Assembly: GCA_934247125.1 (NCBI GenBank)
Contig: CAKQIZ010000031.1
Coordinates: forward strand, 1 to 20,227
Direction of reading: 5' to 3'
Length of the DNA stretch: 20,227 bases
From: an uncultured Clostridia bacterium
Lineage (GTDB): Bacteria > Bacillota > Clostridia > Peptostreptococcales > Anaerovoracaceae
Shown: in pieces, positions 1,826 to 12,894 of the stretch
Position numbering within the stretch: position 1 is the first letter of the stretch
Layout of the letters: each line of letters begins with the position of its first letter
Notes under the pieces: generated by a model
Seen by the model: only the letters and a program-made list of their open reading frames with translations
Told to the model about the DNA's origin: nothing
The model's database searches: none
Made by a program: the position numbers and the translations under genes

Positions 1826-2219
1826 AATATCTCCTTTCTGAGTTTAGTAGTTTCGTTTGACCGGCGTGCCTCGGGTCGCGATCCCCGGGATATGTCCGGC
1901 AGTCTTACAGCAGGTTGCTGTCTGTGATGTCCGTACAGTCCGCCGGGTGTGTGCACCCTGGGTTTGACGTATCAGTGCGCTGCTGCAGGTCTGATCAGCC
2001 GGTCAGATCTGCGTGCTCCGTGATGAACGCCGGTATTTGCGAAGAGATCTTTTCGTTAGTGAAAGTATATTTCTAATTGTCTGAAAATTCCACTGTTTTT
2101 TTGTCGAGATTCAGGATAAAAAGCGCTAAATTATTAAAAGTTTAAAAAATGGTAATAGCAATATTTATTCGTTTTTGATAAAATTATTCCATAAAAGTGC
2201 GGAAAAAGGTGGTGATTTT
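1826..2219. other. Divergent intergenic region, no gene seen
   Basis: 394 bp separate the divergently read amidohydrolase and AraC genes. The left two thirds is GC-rich, with short inverted repeats such as GGGTG-TGTG-CACCC near 1944-1957. The right third (about 2060-2219) is AT-rich and should hold the promoters. On the minus strand a TATACT hexamer lies near 2065-2070 without a convincing -35 box, which would give a 5' leader of over 200 nt for the amidohydrolase. I see no riboswitch that I recognise and no credible small ORF. Confidence 0.5.
2156..2184 (+). promoter_or_regulatory. Candidate promoter of the AraC-type gene
   Basis: An extended -10 element TGATAAAAT (2176-2184) lies in AT-rich DNA, 17 bp after a weak -35 TAGCAA (2156-2161). 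Transcription would start near 2191, which fits a GTG start at 2220 and excludes the TTG at 2175. The -35 match is poor, so the call is tentative. Confidence 0.3.
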
Positions 2220-4283
2220 GTGAAAGAAACCAGAAATTACAGCAGGTATGAGATAGTGTCAGTATCGATATACGACAATATCGAATATCCGATGCATTAT
2301 CATCCGGATCCGGAGATGATATTCGTGCTCGAAGGCGCAGCGCGGATCCATACCAGTTATTACACGATAGACAGGATGGAAGAAAACGAATTCCTGTTCA
2401 TAAACAGGAGCACGGTCCACAATATAGAGAAGATCAGATCGGAACCGTGCAGGATAATGAGTATACATTTTCATATGGAAGATATCGCGGAACTGTTCAG
2501 TCTGCCGGAACTTACGGCTTTCAGCATTGCCAGCTTCGATGAATACTGTCCGTCAAATATAACCGCGCAGCTGCGCAAATATCTTGTAGACATCGCAAGC
2601 GCATATTTTTCGCTGCCCGCCGCAAAGGAAAGCGAGCTCTCCGACAAGGTCATGGAATGCTATGTTTATATGGTGAATAATTTCCAGTGGTTTTACTACG
2701 AGGATTATATACTGAGGAATTATCCGCAGAGGATGCCGCTGGCGCAGATCACGAGGGCGGAGGAGATCATCAATTATGTCCAGGAGCATTACAGCGACAG
2801 GCTCACACTGGCCGATGTGGCGGATGCATTTTATCTGAACAAGTATTACCTTTCGCATCTGCTCAAGGATTCGCTCGGCATGAACTTCCAGGATATCGTG
2901 AATGCGATCAGGCTCAACATCGCGCTTTTTCCGCTGCTGGATTCGCAGAAATCGATCGACGACATCGCGGAGGAATGCGGGTTCTCGTCGGCGGCGTATT
3001 TCAGGAAAGCGTTCGCGAAACAGGCAAAGGTGCCGCTCAGTCGTTACCGCAAGACTTATGCAAAGCGCACGCTGACGAATCGTCAGCCGGAGATAAAGGA
3101 GTACAGCGAGGAGGAGCAGCAGCGCCTGCTTACGGAATACAAGCGGAAATATTTTCCGGGCGAGTTTTTTGCTACCGGGGTGAAGCGGGTCCCGGTTCGC
3201 GTGGAGCTTAAAACGCCGCCGTACAGGCGGCGCCTGCCGGCAGAATTCAGAGCGGTAAGGCTGACGCCTCAGGCTTTGCTGTCGCTTGATCAGCTGAAGA
3301 ACCTGCTGGGCGAGCGCAGGGTCGAGACAGTTGTTGCTCTCGAGTCGGATTTTGTAAAGATGCGGGCTGCCTGCGGGGCGCGGGATGTTCTCGCGGCAGC
3401 GAGTTTGTCAGAGCCGCAGGCTGTTTTGGAGCCGGGAGACGGTCTTGAGTCCTGGGATCGTTTCGGGGCAGGATATGTTACCGGGTCATGGGATATTTTT
3501 GAGCCGGTGGACGATCTGTGCCGCGGAGCGGGGATCGAGATGAGGCTCCGCAGGATCTGCGGATCCATAGGAGTTGAGGAAGCTGCTGCTGGTGATGGAG
3601 GCAGTGTGACGGATCAGAAGTCGGATCAGGAGTTAGATCAGGAGTCAGGCGTGAAATCGGCTCGGAGAACGGAACGAAACGCGGTTCAGGATGAAAGGCC
3701 GGTGCCGGCGCTGATCCGCAGGCTCAGATGTCAGCGTGGCAGTGGATCAGCGATCGGCGCGTCTGCCGTCGATCTGATCCCCGCAGTCAGCGGGACCGAG
3801 TTTTCGATGTATGGCCGCAAAGGACTGCGCACTCGATGGTATTACCTGTATTTCCTGCTAGATCAGATATACGATGAAGTGATCTTCGAAAATGACAGCT
3901 GTACGATAACGCGGGACGGCAGCGAGCTGGGTATACTGCTTTACAATATACCGGATGCCCCGGACGGCATGGGCGAACCGTCAGAACCCGAAGCAGAGCG
4001 AAAAGAGATTTTCCTTCATCTTGAGGATATCGAGTTCAACTATACGATAATTTCGTATACTTTCGACTTCTTCTCGGAAAGCGAGGAGGATGTGTGGCGT
4101 GCCATCGGCGCGCCGGAAGACATGGACAGTGCAGTCCGGGAGACGATCAGAAGCGGATGTTTCCCGGAGGTGGCGTATGCGCGCTCGACTTCTCAGTATG
4201 ATCTCCTCAGGGAGATCGCGCTTGAGCCGGGCGAGCTGAAACTTCTCAGACTGATCCCGGAACGCGGCAGCGAAGTGAGATAG
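2220..4283 (+). CDS. AraC-family regulator with C-terminal GH39-derived region
   Basis: Transcription regulator of 687 residues. The N-terminal cupin-like sensor spans about residues 20-90 (HYHPDPEMIFVLEGA), and an AraC double helix-turn-helix spans about 183-282 (LTLADVADAFYLNKYYLSHL, then IDDIAEECGFSSAAYFRKAF). About 400 residues follow, whereas ordinary AraC proteins end after the helix-turn-helix. Residues about 528-680 (GRKGLRTRWYYLYFLL, DEVIFENDSCTITRDG, ILLYNIPD, FLHLEDIE, WRAIGAPEDM, LEPGELKLLRLIP) resemble the beta-rich C-terminal part of GH39 xylosidase-like proteins that are fused to AraC domains in clostridia. The segment in between, where a TIM barrel belongs, is short and contains a low-complexity acidic linker (about 450-490), so catalysis is unlikely. 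I chose GTG 2220 because AAAGGTGG lies at good spacing upstream; the in-frame TTG 2175 lacks one. The target may be the divergent amidohydrolase gene (inference). Confidence 0.85.
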   Translation: MKETRNYSRYEIVSVSIYDNIEYPMHYHPDPEMIFVLEGAARIHTSYYTIDRMEENEFLFINRSTVHNIEKIRSEPCRIMSIHFHMEDIAELFSLPELTAFSIASFDEYCPSNITAQLRKYLVDIASAYFSLPAAKESELSDKVMECYVYMVNNFQWFYYEDYILRNYPQRMPLAQITRAEEIINYVQEHYSDRLTLADVADAFYLNKYYLSHLLKDSLGMNFQDIVNAIRLNIALFPLLDSQKSIDDIAEECGFSSAAYFRKAFAKQAKVPLSRYRKTYAKRTLTNRQPEIKEYSEEEQQRLLTEYKRKYFPGEFFATGVKRVPVRVELKTPPYRRRLPAEFRAVRLTPQALLSLDQLKNLLGERRVETVVALESDFVKMRAACGARDVLAAASLSEPQAVLEPGDGLESWDRFGAGYVTGSWDIFEPVDDLCRGAGIEMRLRRICGSIGVEEAAAGDGGSVTDQKSDQELDQESGVKSARRTERNAVQDERPVPALIRRLRCQRGSGSAIGASAVDLIPAVSGTEFSMYGRKGLRTRWYYLYFLLDQIYDEVIFENDSCTITRDGSELGILLYNIPDAPDGMGEPSEPEAERKEIFLHLEDIEFNYTIISYTFDFFSESEEDVWRAIGAPEDMDSAVRETIRSGCFPEVAYARSTSQYDLLREIALEPGELKLLRLIPERGSEVR

Positions 4284-4315: not shown

Positions 4316-4361
4316 CTGCCTGCCCTTCATATCCTGTCCTGCCTGCCCTTCATATCCTGCC
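4316..4361. repeat. 23-bp tandem duplication
   Basis: Two adjacent 23-bp copies (4316-4338 and 4339-4361) beginning CTGCCTGCCCTTCATATCCT differ at one base. They lie just after the AraC gene. A 7-bp inverted repeat CAGGCAG/CTGCCTG overlaps the first copy, but there is no T-tract to make it a terminator. Confidence 0.8.
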
Positions 4362-4378
4362 TTGTCTTATGTGGCGAA

Positions 4379-4633
4379 AACCAAAAACCATTTGCCGGAT
4401 AGCGGCTGTTGGTAAAAACTGCTCTTTTCCGGCTCTTTTTCTTATGCCGGATACCAAAAATCAGAAACCGATTTCTGATTTTTGGTATTTTAAACGCATA
4501 AAAAGCCATATCCACGAAGAATTTTACCAAATAACTATAGGTGAGTTTGGATTCTTGGTAATCGCCATTCTGGAAGGGCATGATTTTTCAGGGATTTTGC
4601 TAAAGAAGACAGCAGGAAGATGCGATTTTGGTA
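4379..4633. repeat. Element A: four ~73-bp units with TACCAA/TTGGTA box pairs
   Basis: Within the 630-bp gap 4284-4913, inverted boxes occur at 4379 (AACCAA), 4409 (TTGGTA), 4452 (TACCAA), 4482 (TTGGTA), 4525 (TACCAA), 4555 (TTGGTA), 4598 (TGCTAA, degenerate) and 4628 (TTGGTA). The intervals are 30, 43, 30, 43, 30, 43 and 30 bp, an exact 73-bp period. Each unit is a 36-bp segment bounded by the inverted pair, followed by 37 bp. The 36-bp interiors differ from each other, so this is not a CRISPR array or a simple tandem repeat. The same element occurs in inverted orientation at 8811-9066. No expected fifth box is found on either side. The rest of the gap (4638-4824) holds only short GC-rich hairpins, such as GCAGGC-GCA-GCCTGC at 4684-4698. 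Function is unknown; an array of sites for an oligomeric DNA-binding protein is my inference. Confidence 0.8.
4451..4488. repeat. Perfect 17-bp inverted repeat (second unit of element A)
   Basis: Arms 4451-4467 (ATACCAAAAATCAGAAA) and 4472-4488 are exact reverse complements around a CCGA loop. It is the second 36-bp unit of element A. The sequence after it (TTAAACGC) has no T-tract, so a terminator role is not obvious. Confidence 0.9.
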
Positions 4634-4824
4634 ATCGAGGATCCATATGCTGCAGTGATATAAGAGATAATCGATACAGCAGGGCAGGCGCAGCCTGCGA
4701 CCCACATACGCGCGTCAGCGCGCAGTCGACCGGCAGCATGAAAATCTCCGCACGACTCAGCATAGTCTATGAGAGTGATGCGAGCGGCGACCTGCAAAAC
4801 TTTACATAATACACCGAATACTTT

Positions 4825-4913: not shown

Positions 4914-5534
4914 ATGAATGATAAAAAGAAGATAATAACTATAAGCCGTGAATTCGGAAGCGGCGGCAGACTGATAGGCAAACGTCTTGCGGAGAAGCTG
5001 GATGTTCCGTATTATGACAAGGAGCTGCTGGACAGGATTGCTGAGGAATCGGGATTCTGCAAGGAGATGATGGAGGATGCGGAGAAGAAGGCGAAGAACA
5101 GTTTTCTTTACAGCCTGGCATCAGCGATGGGAACTGCGGAGGCGGGACCTGAGAGTCTTTCGCTCAACGAGAGGTTTTTCCTGGCTCAGTTCGATACGAT
5201 AAGGAGGATCGCTGACGAGGGTTCGTGCGTCATCGTTGGACGTTGTGCAGACTATATCCTGCGCGGGATCCCTGAGGCGACGAATGTGTTCATCTATGCC
5301 GAGGAGCAGGATAAGATCAAGAGGGCTGTCGAAGAGTACGGCGTGCCGCAGGATATGGTGAAGAAGATGATGAAGGACACTGACAAGGCGAGAGCTAACT
5401 ATTACTCGTATCACACGGGTCAGAAGTGGGGAGAGTCTGTCAACTATCATCTTTCGATAGACAGCGGATATCTTGAGATCGAGGACATCGTAGACCTCAT
5501 CATAAAATATACGGACGTCAAGCTTTACAGGTGA
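4914..5534 (+). CDS. Cytidylate kinase-like family protein
   Basis: A 206-residue P-loop NTPase of the cytidylate kinase-like family. The start ITISREFGSGGRLIGKRLA gives the phosphate-binding loop (about residues 10-20). Next come YYDKELL, a long helical region with NERFFLAQFDTIRRIA, then CVIVGRCADYIL (about 102-113) and the RAVEEYGV / DTDKARANYYSYHTGQKWG segment, which holds the lid-type arginines. This group is widespread in Clostridia and distinct from the canonical cmk product, so phosphorylation of CMP cannot be assumed. ATG 4914 is preceded by a near-perfect AAGGAGG (4899-4905) at 8 nt. It appears to be a single-gene unit with its own promoter and a hairpin downstream. It is soluble and cytoplasmic by sequence. 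Confidence 0.85.
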   Translation: MNDKKKIITISREFGSGGRLIGKRLAEKLDVPYYDKELLDRIAEESGFCKEMMEDAEKKAKNSFLYSLASAMGTAEAGPESLSLNERFFLAQFDTIRRIADEGSCVIVGRCADYILRGIPEATNVFIYAEEQDKIKRAVEEYGVPQDMVKKMMKDTDKARANYYSYHTGQKWGESVNYHLSIDSGYLEIEDIVDLIIKYTDVKLYR

Positions 5535-7697: not shown

Positions 7698-7705
7698 AGC
7701 CCGGC

Positions 7706-7852
7706 AACCCGATGCCGGAACCCCCAGACCCGGTGTCAGGACCTCACAACCCGGTGCAGGAAACCTCGGAACCGGTGTCGGAATCCCCGCAACCCGATGC
7801 CGGAATCCCGGAACCCGGTGCCGGAAATCCCGGAACCCCCGGAACCCGGCGA
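7706..7852. repeat. 21-bp GC-rich minisatellite between metG and tatD
   Basis: About 6.5 imperfect units with consensus AACCCGGTGCCGGAAACCCCG start at 7706, 7727, 7748, 7769, 7791, 7812 and 7834, with a truncated unit at 7843. The period is 21-22 bp. Each unit contains a small palindromic core of the CCGGTGCCGG type. Because 21 is a multiple of three, all frames look like 7-residue proline-rich repeats, but no start with a ribosome binding site supports translation. Confidence 0.85.
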
Positions 7853-7896
7853 TTTTGCGATTTACATACCAATAATAAACGAAAAGAGGCAAAAAT

Positions 7897-8745
7897 ATGT
7901 TTTTTGATTCACACGCACATTTGAACAATGAGATGTCGGACGAAGCGAGAGCGGCGATGGTCAAGGCTATCGAGGACTCGGAGCTCGATTATGTAATGGA
8001 TATCGGCTTTGACCTGCCTAGCTCGAAGCTCGCAGTCGATCATGCGGCGAAATATCCGTGGTGCTATGCTGCAGTCGGCTGCCATCCTCATGATACCGAC
8101 AGCATGGATGACATGCAGCTGGCGCTGATAAAAGGTCTGGCAAAAAAGAAAAAAGTAATGGCCATCGGTGAGATCGGTCTTGATTTTCATTACGATCATT
8201 CGCCGCGCGACGTTCAGCGCGAATGGTTCAGGAGGCAGATCCGTCTGGCGAACGAACTGAAAATGCCGATCGTTATCCACTCGAGAGAAGCTGATCAGGA
8301 AGTGCTTGACATCCTCAAGGAAGAAGGCGCATTTTCCGACGAGCGAAAAAGCTGGTTCCCGGAAAGGCCGGACACGACCGGATATGTGCTTAAGCAGCCA
8401 GGTACATGCAAAGATGCACGCGTGCTTCTGCACTGCTTTTCGGGAAGTGCCGAGCTGGGCAGTCAGTACGTGAAGCTCGGCGCGACGATCTCGATCGCAG
8501 GTCCTGTGACATACAAAAACAACAGAAAGACCGTGGGTGTGGTCGCAGAACTGCCGCTGGACTTCCTGCTTGTCGAGACAGATTCGCCGTACCTGACGCC
8601 GGAGCCTTTCCGCGGCAGGAAAAACGATCCTTCCAAGGTGGAGTACACTGCGAGAAAAGTCGCAGAGATCAAAGGCCTGAGCCTGGAAGAAGTAGCAGCG
8701 AAAACAAAGGAAAACGCGATGCGCTTTTACGGTATGACCGAATAA
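7897..8745 (+). CDS. tatD: TatD family metal-dependent deoxyribonuclease
   Basis: Cytoplasmic TIM-barrel hydrolase of 282 residues (family usually 255-280). TatD enzymes are 3'-5' exonucleases and deoxyribonucleases linked to DNA repair and RNA quality control. The metal-binding residues are all present: H6 and H8 (DSHAHLN), E92 (IGEIGLDFHYD), H128 (VIHSREA), H179 (LLHCFSGS) and D229 (VETDSPYLTPEPFRG). About 25 extra residues at about 148-172, before the HCFSG strand, make the protein slightly long. The ATG at 7897 has AGAGG about 9 nt upstream. It follows metG, the usual metG-tatD order, but is separated from it by two hairpins and a minisatellite, so co-transcription is uncertain. No clear promoter of its own is visible. 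Confidence 0.95.
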   Translation: MFFDSHAHLNNEMSDEARAAMVKAIEDSELDYVMDIGFDLPSSKLAVDHAAKYPWCYAAVGCHPHDTDSMDDMQLALIKGLAKKKKVMAIGEIGLDFHYDHSPRDVQREWFRRQIRLANELKMPIVIHSREADQEVLDILKEEGAFSDERKSWFPERPDTTGYVLKQPGTCKDARVLLHCFSGSAELGSQYVKLGATISIAGPVTYKNNRKTVGVVAELPLDFLLVETDSPYLTPEPFRGRKNDPSKVEYTARKVAEIKGLSLEEVAAKTKENAMRFYGMTE

Positions 8746-8786: not shown

Positions 8787-8810
8787 GGTCGCTTGGGCAG
8801 GGTCGGCGGT

Positions 8811-9066
8811 TACCAAAATCAGCCTGCAACATCATAATATTTAGCAAAAACGCTGTAATATCACCTTCTTCAAAGAGTCTGTTTACCAAGAAGTTGATTG
8901 CCCCTATGATTTTTTGGTAACTTTTCAGTGAAAATCTCCGATATTTTCGCATGAAAATACCAAGGGACAACCATCGGTTTTCTATTTTTGGTATTCACCA
9001 TCAAAAAAACAATCGAAGGATAGCTGTTTTTACCAACAACAGCTATCCGGCAAACGATTCTTGGTT
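8811..9066. repeat. Element B: inverted second copy of the four-unit TACCAA/TTGGTA array
   Basis: Lies in the 478-bp gap 8746-9223. Read on the minus strand, its boxes begin at 9066 (AACCAA), 9036 (TTGGTA), 8993 (TACCAA), 8963 (TTGGTA), 8919 (TACCAA), 8889 (TTGGTA), 8846 (TGCTAA) and 8816 (TTGGTA). The intervals are 30, 43, 30, 44, 30, 43 and 30 bp, the same as element A with one extra base. Even the degenerate seventh box TGCTAA is shared. By hand alignment, unit 1 matches element A at 31 of 36 positions, unit 2 at 26, unit 3 at 25 and unit 4 at 19; the 37-bp segments between units match less. The copies are inverted relative to each other and 4.2 kb apart. No flanking target-site duplication is obvious. 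Between 9070 and the promoter at 9162 I see nothing further. Confidence 0.8.
9018..9048. repeat. Perfect 11-bp inverted repeat inside element B
   Basis: GGATAGCTGTT (9018-9028) and AACAGCTATCC (9038-9048) are exact complements, with a TACCAA box in the 9-nt loop. Element A keeps the GGATAGC half but not the full palindrome. Confidence 0.85.
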
Positions 9067-9161
9067 TTCACGCAAGTTCGCAACACGCCATCTGAAATCG
9101 CCGCACCGATCTCCGTCATCAAAACAAAAAATCACCAAACCTTCACCAGAGAACAGGGGTT

Positions 9162-9195
9162 TTGACAAAATTCGATGAGGGACAGGCGGTATAAT
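9162..9195 (+). promoter_or_regulatory. Spo0A-type promoter of the SpoIIE gene (22-bp spacer)
   Basis: Consensus TTGACA (9162-9167) and consensus TATAAT (9190-9195) are separated by 22 bp, too far for ordinary sigma-A initiation. In Bacillus subtilis the Spo0A-activated promoters spoIIG and spoIIE have the same peculiarity (22 and 21 bp). Two 0A-box-like heptamers lie 10 bp apart: TTTGACA at 9161 (one mismatch from TTCGACA) and TTCGATG at 9171 (two mismatches). Activation by phosphorylated Spo0A is inferred by analogy. Confidence 0.6.
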
Positions 9196-9223
9196 GCACC
9201 TGTATTGGGAATGGAGATTTTTT

Positions 9224-11338
9224 ATGGAAAACACGACTAAAGCAAGAGCTTTTGATTTTAGTAAAAAAAGTCGGATCAAAATCAGGACGAGACTGGCTCG
9301 AGGGCTGGTGATCATGGCGTTAGCGCTCGTTGTGAGCCACGGTATGGTGATGGATGGATATTTTCCGGCTGCAGTGGCGCTGACTGCTTATCTTGCTGCA
9401 AAGAAACCGCTGAATGCACTGGCTGCATTTCCGGCTGCAGCGGCGATAGCTCCGTACCTGTTGAAAGGCTACGATCCGTGGGGCGACATGGCAGCAGTAC
9501 TGGTATGTGCACTGTTCTTTCCAGTTGCGGGGAAAGCGCGTTTCAGAGTCTGGCAGGTCGGCCTGATCGCAGCGTCGGCGGGCATCGTATGCATTAGTCT
9601 GAGCAGGATCGCGACGTCGACGGTCTATAAGATAAGTCCGGAAAAACTGCTGATTTACGGTGCGCTGATATTCGCGATCGTGATCATTGCGGACGTGGTC
9701 TGCAGTATGATCGGAGAGATTCGGACGAGTGTTTCGGGAGCGGGAAACAGCACGGTATCGCGTGGCCCGGCTCAGCACGATTTTACATCGTACGGTTCGG
9801 AATGGCAGAACAGGGGCGCAGCGCATAGTGTGCAGCAGGGCAGCGGCACGTATCACAGCGTATCGGATATAGGCGATGCCGATTCGTGCGCCTTAGCTTC
9901 GCAAAGCATGGGATCGTGCGCCTCAGCGTCGCAAAGCACGGGATCGTGCGATCGGATCCCCCGATCCCTGACGCTCCTGGCCGACGGCAAATATGAAAAA
10001 GAGCTTCGGATCGCAGCAGTGATATCCGCAGTATTTATGATCGTGAACGGTGCAGGTCTGAGTTTTCTCGTATGGCCGATGATCCTTTTCATGGCGATGG
10101 CAGCGCTTGACAGCACCGGCGCAGGCGCCCCGTTCATCGTGATCGCGACAGGCGGGATCTGGGCTGCACTCATGGGGCAGAGCCAGTGGGGCCTGCTGGC
10201 GACCGCTGTGATCGGAGCCGCAGCTGCAGTCTTTGCAAAGCGTTTCGGTATTTTGATCCGTACAGCGACGTTCATCGCAGTGTGCTGGACTATGGGATTC
10301 ATGGAAAGCGGCACGGTACTGGGAGTCGACGGCTACTGTATTTTTGTGGCGGCAGCGATTTTTGCAGTGGTCAGCTGGAAGTTCAGGTCTGGTGTAAAGC
10401 GCCTGATCGCAGCGATCGAAGGAAACTCTGAGACTGCCGGAGAAACTTCGGCAGTCAGGGCAGCTGCGCTTTTGCAGAGCAAGTCCGATGACATGCAGGA
10501 ACTTGCAGAGCTTTACGCGACCTATGTGGACAGCCGTTCAGCGCTGGCCAGTCAGTTCAATATGACGAAGCAGATAATGGATGACGTGAGATACAGGATA
10601 AACCGCCGTCCGGGCGCGGCACGAAGCGGCCACGGCGGGTACAGCGACATCAGCAGGTGGGCGAAAACGAGGCGTGAAAAGCTGGCGGTAGACATTTCGG
10701 CATCGCAGTATGCAGCATCGGGAACGATAAACGGTGACTGCTGCGGCTGGCAGGATATAGGCGACGGACGCACTGTCATGGTTGTCAGCGATGGCATGGG
10801 AAAGGGCAAGAAAGCAGCTGCAGAAAGCCTGCTGGTGACGAAGACGCTGATATCGCTGCTCAAGGCCGGTGTCACACCGGACCTTGCACTCAAGATGATA
10901 AATACCGTGATGCTGATGAAAGACGATGAAGAATCATACGCTACTGTGGATCTGGCCATAATAGACCGGATAAGCGGAAAAGTGAAATTTTACAAGATAG
11001 GAGCAGCCCCGACGCTGATACGGCACCGCGAGACGGTCGAGGAAGTGAAGCTCTCCGCTGTCCCGCTCGGGATCGTGAACGGGCTGAAGATACGATATAT
11101 GGAAACTGAGCTGAAAAAAGACGACTGGATCATCATGATGTCGGACGGGGTCAGCGACGGCGGGACAAGCGGGAGCACGGGATGCGACGCTTTTATCGAC
11201 ACCCTCAAAAGCATTGTGGCGAAAGTGCGCTCGGCAGATCCCAAAATGATGAGCATGCTGCTGATCGATCAGGCAGCGGACAGCTATATAGGGCGGGAGC
11301 GCGATGATCTGACGGTGCTCGCAGCGTATATCAGCTGA
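9224..11338 (+). CDS. spoIIE: Stage II sporulation protein E-like membrane PP2C phosphatase
   Basis: A 704-residue protein. SpoIIE dephosphorylates the anti-anti-sigma factor SpoIIAA to activate sigma-F in the forespore, and its membrane part localises to the division septum. Residues about 25-165 form a first block of hydrophobic helices. About 165-258 is a cytosolic low-complexity linker, about 262-388 a second membrane block, 410-460 a helical linker, and 485-704 the PP2C-type domain. Catalytic metal ligands are visible in VVSDGMGKGK (D523), IMMSDGV (D641) and RDDLTVLAAYI (D694/D695). It is shorter than Bacillus subtilis SpoIIE (about 827). I chose ATG 9224: GGAG lies at 9213-9216, whereas the in-frame ATG 9194 overlaps the -10 box. 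The downstream tilS-ftsH context supports true SpoIIE rather than a generic stress phosphatase. Confidence 0.9.
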   Translation: MENTTKARAFDFSKKSRIKIRTRLARGLVIMALALVVSHGMVMDGYFPAAVALTAYLAAKKPLNALAAFPAAAAIAPYLLKGYDPWGDMAAVLVCALFFPVAGKARFRVWQVGLIAASAGIVCISLSRIATSTVYKISPEKLLIYGALIFAIVIIADVVCSMIGEIRTSVSGAGNSTVSRGPAQHDFTSYGSEWQNRGAAHSVQQGSGTYHSVSDIGDADSCALASQSMGSCASASQSTGSCDRIPRSLTLLADGKYEKELRIAAVISAVFMIVNGAGLSFLVWPMILFMAMAALDSTGAGAPFIVIATGGIWAALMGQSQWGLLATAVIGAAAAVFAKRFGILIRTATFIAVCWTMGFMESGTVLGVDGYCIFVAAAIFAVVSWKFRSGVKRLIAAIEGNSETAGETSAVRAAALLQSKSDDMQELAELYATYVDSRSALASQFNMTKQIMDDVRYRINRRPGAARSGHGGYSDISRWAKTRREKLAVDISASQYAASGTINGDCCGWQDIGDGRTVMVVSDGMGKGKKAAAESLLVTKTLISLLKAGVTPDLALKMINTVMLMKDDEESYATVDLAIIDRISGKVKFYKIGAAPTLIRHRETVEEVKLSAVPLGIVNGLKIRYMETELKKDDWIIMMSDGVSDGGTSGSTGCDAFIDTLKSIVAKVRSADPKMMSMLLIDQAADSYIGRERDDLTVLAAYIS
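9884..9950 (+). repeat. 30-bp direct repeat in the SpoIIE linker
   Basis: Two 30-bp copies (9884-9913, 9914-9943) plus a 7-bp partial copy encode SCALASQSMG, SCASASQSTG and SC. They fall in the cytosolic linker between the two membrane blocks. The length of 30 bp keeps the frame. Confidence 0.85.
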
Positions 11339-12799: not shown

Positions 12800-12828
12800 T
12801 TGCTGATACTTGGTTTACATGATAAAAT
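12800..12828 (+). promoter_or_regulatory. Candidate promoter of ftsH
   Basis: TTGCTG (12800-12805) and TAAAAT (12823-12828) are 17 bp apart, and the -10 is extended by TGA. A second, consensus TATAAT lies at 12846-12851 without a recognisable -35 box and may be an alternative start. Both precede the TTG start at 12895. Confidence 0.45.
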
Positions 12829-12894
12829 AAAACGATAACTTTGTATATAATAACCAAAAAATCAGCTGACAAAACATTACCGGGAGGATATAAA

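Follow-up and report, generated by a model that had tools for sequence, protein, structure and literature searches.

What kind of element is the array of short boxes that lies between an AraC-type regulator gene (2175..4283, + strand) and a cytidylate kinase-like gene (4914..5534, +) in the window (the whole 20,227-nt stretch of DNA that was analysed)? The boxes start at positions 4379, 4409, 4452, 4482, 4525, 4555, 4598, and 4628, at intervals of 30-43-30-43-30-43-30 bp, and every start and the 30/43 spacing reported in the initial annotation were confirmed. That annotation described eight TACCAA/TTGGTA boxes of alternating orientation; the alternation stands, but the exact letters are present at only six of the eight. 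Boxes on the + strand read AACCAA (4379..4384, a variant), TACCAA (4452..4457 and 4525..4530), and TGCTAA (4598..4603, a variant), and the four on the − strand appear as TTGGTA on the + strand (4409..4414, 4482..4487, 4555..4560, and 4628..4633). The repeat unit is an inverted half-site pair, TACCAA-N24-TTGGTA, present four times per copy with a period of 73 bp.

A second copy of the array (copy 2; 8811..9066, + strand, 256 bp), which had been overlooked, was found about 4.2 kb away in the opposite orientation using the pair pattern, repeat finding, and alignment. It lies between a TatD-family DNase gene (7897..8745, +) and a gene with a SpoIIE phosphatase domain (9194..11338, +; the true start may be slightly further in). 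Because copy 2 is reverse-complementary to the array described above, that array is one copy (copy 1; 4379..4633, 255 bp, assigned to the − strand to give both copies the same reading direction) of a dispersed repeat. Copy 1 was delimited by alignment and by two inverted repeats from repeat finding: I1, in which 4376-4491 pairs with 8954-9069 (116 nt, 76% complementary), and I23, in which 4624-4644 pairs with 8800-8820 (21 nt, 81%). The same eight boxes, variants included, occur in copy 2 at intervals of 30-43-30-44-30-43-30 bp, i.e., with one extra base: TACCAA (8811..8816, +), the variant TTAGCA (8841..8846, −; the counterpart of TGCTAA at 4598), TACCAA (8884..8889, +), TTGGTA (8914..8919, −), TACCAA (8958..8963, +; 44 bp past the preceding box), TTGGTA (8988..8993, −), TACCAA (9031..9036, +), and the variant TTGGTT (9061..9066, −; the counterpart of AACCAA at 4379). 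One inner and one terminal variant box are thus retained in both copies. The alignment of the copies spans the entire element (173 of 273 columns identical, including 10-base flanks), and the sequence outside the repeat differs between the two sites.

The array of copy 1 is real and not a product of chance. The pattern TACCAA-N20-30-TTGGTA occurs four times in the window, with two matches in copy 1 and two in copy 2 (within 8884-8993), against an average of 0.01 over 100 shuffles. In a look-elsewhere test across the whole window, which left the hexamer free as well as both spacings (each 15–60 bp), the longest exact alternating chain comprised five boxes (TACCAA, starting at 4409), and removal of copy 1 left one of four (TACCAA, copy 2); 60 whole-window shuffles gave a chain of three in 56 cases and a shorter one in four. 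The best 30/43 lattice of copy 1 holds six exact boxes, versus a maximum of two in 2000 dinucleotide shuffles. Copy 2 has a strict-lattice score of just 3, because the one-base insertion splits its lattice, versus a maximum of 1 in 2000 shuffles. The initial annotation had made its reading depend on there being further copies and on shuffled sequence being less regular than the array; copy 2 lies in the same window, more copies are implied by open reading frames in databases (see below), and no shuffled version of copy 1 exceeded two lattice boxes against the six observed.

Other repeats and box-like sequences were noticed in the window. A 23-bp perfect tandem duplication (4316-4359) is located just 3′ of the AraC-type gene, adjoining copy 1. 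An imperfect GC-rich 21/43-bp tandem repeat (7700-7838) lies between metG and tatD, with a TACCAA at 7867 just beyond it, and a 30-bp tandem repeat (2.2 copies, 9884-9950) is found within the SpoIIE-domain gene. Between the tilS-like and ftsH genes (12810-12857), TTGGTT and AACCAAAAAATC are situated 42 bp apart and resemble two terminal-type boxes; this site, which did not emerge when the window was searched with a profile at E 50, is possibly a degenerate repeat fragment, or chance.

Comparison of the two copies showed where the repeat has changed. With one hand-placed gap, 48/48 box bases are identical, compared to 115/207 other bases, and an alignment with free gaps gave a similar picture (47/47 box bases vs 124/206 elsewhere, Fisher p = 9e-10). 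Box intervals are equal at six of seven places, and the seventh differs by a single base (44 vs 43). The initial annotation had stated that interiors differ between units, which is true within one copy, but each unit of one copy is homologous to its counterpart in the other: identities of successive interiors and linkers are 7/24, 21/37, 13/24, 17/37, 14/24, 24/37, and 19/24. The last of these (interior 7/8) is the best conserved and shows that constraint reaches beyond the boxes, which counts against a model in which a protein reads only the boxes. The base immediately flanking the box is identical at all eight boxes, and two of the next are kept too (7/8 at distance 3), so the recognised site may be somewhat longer than a hexamer. 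As judged from these alignments, the repeat is diverged and dispersed, with its boxes held constant.

Related copies were sought by searching a protein database with alignments of accidental reading frames across the repeat, an approach that detects copies solely where a frame is open, and is therefore biased toward unbroken spacing. A two-row alignment recovered four proteins among 12 candidates and a six-row alignment six among 115. One of these (P0042) gave a 96% match to copy 1 and was accepted as its orthologue. Three 49-aa frames that share one end (P0043, P0044, and P0045) may be strain versions of a single site, which could be the orthologue of copy 1, or they may lie at new sites; because orthology with copy 1 is possible, they do not count as independent evidence. 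The frame of P0046 continues, by eye, into an apparent ribosome site and signal peptide, and this downstream gene fits neither site in the window, implying a third site. P0047 is a weak match (E 2.8, 35% of the query), yet its tail matches sequence that precedes the SpoIIE-domain gene, so it is probably an orthologue of copy 2. These frames are confined to the right half of the repeat, and their boxes are deduced from amino acids. Within P0043–P0046 (the count excludes P0042 and P0047), 16/16 box sites can be back-translated to the copy 1 box in the same place, versus 119/280 non-box hexamers. Across six sequences, codons with at least two box bases are invariant in 7/8 cases, compared to 6/27 for those with none (p = 0.0017); the comparison omits four codons that contain a single box base.

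The distribution of the repeat may be narrow. Its database copies come only from sources labelled ena and lgn, and the closest relatives of the AraC protein in the window (86–97%) occur in ena only, consistent with restriction to a narrow lineage. In viral contigs, the double-pair pattern matched three stretches, none of them a copy; a three-box pattern matched 30 stretches, none with a fourth lattice box by eye; three element-specific patterns gave 0, 0, and 0 matches; a terminal-unit pattern gave one match that reads as ordinary coding-like sequence; and a translated-repeat search returned 105 stretches with 0 confirmed. In genome contigs from 84,980 species, the exact double-pair pattern matched four stretches and no copy was recognised among them; this absence is limited to that pattern, because it overlooks a box with one changed base or another spacing. 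These four stretches were judged to be chance matches, being without further lattice boxes and without a profile match better than E 0.1. The profile of both copies found nothing better than E 0.1 across 39 loci, and a blastn search of phage and plasmid records with copy 2 only gave no match at E 1. There was no description of such an element among the matches listed in a literature search.

Because the boxes are constant while the remainder drifts, the repeat resembles a docking array for a putative DNA-binding protein. The reading that we favour, and to which we give an even chance of being correct, is that this repeat, which is dispersed, noncoding, intergenic, and about 255 bp long, carries a phased array of inverted half-sites for such a protein. 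Constancy of boxes and spacing together with drifting interiors is the pattern expected of a phased protein-binding array, and it is the pattern found here. An invariant hexamer at the lattice points with changing sequence in between is best explained by a protein half-site, since a helix-forming RNA would tolerate paired changes. A sequence-specific protein would take TACCAA as its half-site and a dimer would probably span each 30-bp pair; with pairs every seven helical turns, roughly on one face, up to four dimers could assemble side by side, bridging or bending the DNA. Every copy of the repeat would then act as a docking platform, most likely serving chromosome organisation or the expression of neighbouring genes, by analogy with the proposals made for BIMEs.

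The initial annotation had proposed this protein array, with all boxes on one face of a helix that makes seven turns per unit. At 10.5 bp per turn, 73 bp corresponds to 6.95 turns, but 30 bp (2.86 turns) and 43 bp (4.10 turns) make a single face approximate; the 2.86 turns and the one 44-bp interval in copy 2 indicate loose phasing. The protein-array idea itself appears to be the best fit to the kept boxes and spacing and the drifting interiors, although helical spacing alone is no proof of it. The inconstant orientation relative to the next gene (copy 1 reversed, copy 2 forward) counts against it. We suggest, more tentatively, that the repeat belongs to a lineage-restricted chromosome-organising system in which a putative protein polymerises or bridges on dispersed 255-bp platforms, each occupied by four dimers in helical phase, and in which only the box lattice is under selection; this would be a BIME analogue built from half-sites and not from palindromes. 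Should a protein dock at the boxes, the repeat would amount to a natural ruler, with evenly phased sites dispersed among the genes, and would provide a direct handle on chromosome organisation, or on the co-regulation of unlinked genes, in an uncultured lineage. The box lattice can serve as an exact pattern for searches (TACCAA-N24-TTGGTA-N37) and as bait with which to find the protein. The minimum result is a dispersed repeat family for which the literature search found no description.

The main rival, which we regard as fairly unlikely, is a MITE-like non-autonomous miniature element, whose boxes would be sites or ends for a transposase encoded elsewhere and whose array would serve transposition. 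The two copies are <5 kb apart in opposite orientations, they are AT-rich (38–39% G+C) inside a window of 52% G+C, and the P0046 copy occupies a site of a third kind. Both ends of the repeat fall on mutually inverted boxes, TTACCAAAATC at one end and GATTYTTGGTTTTC at the other; mutual inversion, however, is shared by all its boxes, and these run along the whole length and are not confined to the ends. The 173/273 identical columns indicate old copies and no fresh burst, no convincing target-site duplication was seen by eye in the flanks, whose boundaries are uncertain (TCG on both sides of copy 1, nothing obvious at copy 2), and no transposase gene was noticed in the window.

The repeat is unlikely to be a transcribed structured RNA, or a hairpin element of single-stranded DNA, with four hairpins formed by pairing of TACCAA with TTGGTA. 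The fold energies of both copies on both strands lie below all 200 shuffles each (z −4.33 to −5.48), and, with boxes fixed and interiors shuffled, z is still −3.37 to −4.09. The interiors therefore add to the fold beyond the boxes, an excess that a pure protein-site model does not predict and that counts against it. Strong local palindromes are found at 4452-4487 (z −6.70; a nearly perfect 36-bp palindrome in copy 1 only) and at 8914-8963 (z −3.45), but these are non-corresponding segments of the two copies and the remaining 12 of 14 box-to-box segments range from z −2.56 to +1.37. One possible cause of such palindromes would be template switching between inverted boxes, which makes the adjoining sequence palindromic. 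A hairpin with an 11-bp stem (GGATAGCTGTT...AACAGCTATCC) also surrounds the box at 9031 in copy 2 (9018-9048) and is far weaker in copy 1. Joint folding, a weak test because it rests on two DNA copies, gave z −2.27 against column shuffles in the orientation of copy 2, with seven pairs changed on both sides, but just −0.99 in the opposite one, and in each case the real energy was undercut by the lowest-energy shuffle among 100 column shuffles. There is at best a weak indication of a fold common to the two copies. Stems would permit compensating changes in the boxes, yet 0/48 box bases changed. Rfam gave 0 matches at gathering score in the window; sub-threshold matches (six for one copy's region and three for the other's; the best, at E 0.032, scored 25.3 bits where the cut-off is 83) were taken as chance.

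An operator or promoter array that controls the neighbouring genes, either as part of a regulator's regulon or through a promoter carried in the second unit, is very unlikely. Copy 2 sits about 130–160 bp upstream of the SpoIIE-domain gene, and the P0046 copy lies, by eye, ~120 nt upstream of a secreted-protein-like start, but copy 1 is directed away from its downstream gene and the neighbouring genes have no function evidently in common. Promoter-like hexamers occur at the corresponding unit of both copies (4561-4534, minus strand, in copy 1; 8883-8910, plus strand, in copy 2), and four promoter-like sites were counted in the copy 2 region, compared to 1.0 (sd 0.9) in shuffles; the copy 1 region has two against 1.2 expected, and matching a consensus is no proof of a promoter. 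That the repeat is the remnant of a protein-coding gene, or chance, is scarcely credible: copy 1 has open frames running across it on each strand, and relatives have predicted ORFs of 49 aa, but the 29 differences between the copies in 117 nt are split 5/11/13 by codon position, the reading frames are not the same in the two copies, and P0043, P0042, and a 165-aa frame have no Pfam family, so that a coding function is not supported, and the pair-pattern, chain, and lattice shuffles fall below the real counts.

Among known systems, CRISPR arrays share with this repeat a period of tens of bases and varying interiors, whereas here the conserved parts are hexamers of alternating orientation, without any conserved direct repeat as long as those of CRISPRs, which are identical and about 23–47 nt in length. 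The 20 largest of the 59 direct-repeat families in the list include only a chance-like one of 26 nt that falls in the array, and TRF listed no tandem array at the repeat; these two results agree with the exclusion of a CRISPR and of ordinary tandem duplication in the initial annotation. Operators with widely spaced inverted half-sites, such as those of BirA, consist of short half-sites separated by a fixed spacer and bound by a dimer, and they are single sites at target promoters. The repeat likewise has short inverted half-sites at a fixed spacing but joins four pairs into one dispersed element. With MITEs and REPINs it has in common being a small, noncoding, dispersed repeat with inverted ends; it differs in having no demonstrated mobility or clear target duplication and in having boxes throughout its length.

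The closest resemblance is to BIMEs, which are described (PMC2817692) as extragenic, with regularly spaced units of alternating orientation, binding several proteins, and with proposed roles in chromosome organisation and transcription termination. The remark in the initial annotation that no described element of this form was known thus needs qualifying, given that BIMEs of other bacteria are also regularly spaced and alternating (PMC2817692). The REP units listed in that source start with GTAG or GTGG and have a conserved palindrome of about 20–35 nt (PMC2817692). Copies 1 and 2 contain GTAG 0 and 0 times and GTGG once and 0 times (CTAC 0/0, CCAC 1/0). When oriented, the units of the repeat share only the hexamer and a short A-run, with no interior palindrome; its palindromes vary by copy and its interiors differ between units. 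Because the REP motif and the conserved palindrome, as given in that source, are absent, we do not file the repeat as a BIME. It is, like BIMEs, dispersed, extragenic, regularly spaced, and alternating in orientation, and by this analogy it would best be read as a BIME-like intergenic repeat, for which the BIME is the nearest known architecture.
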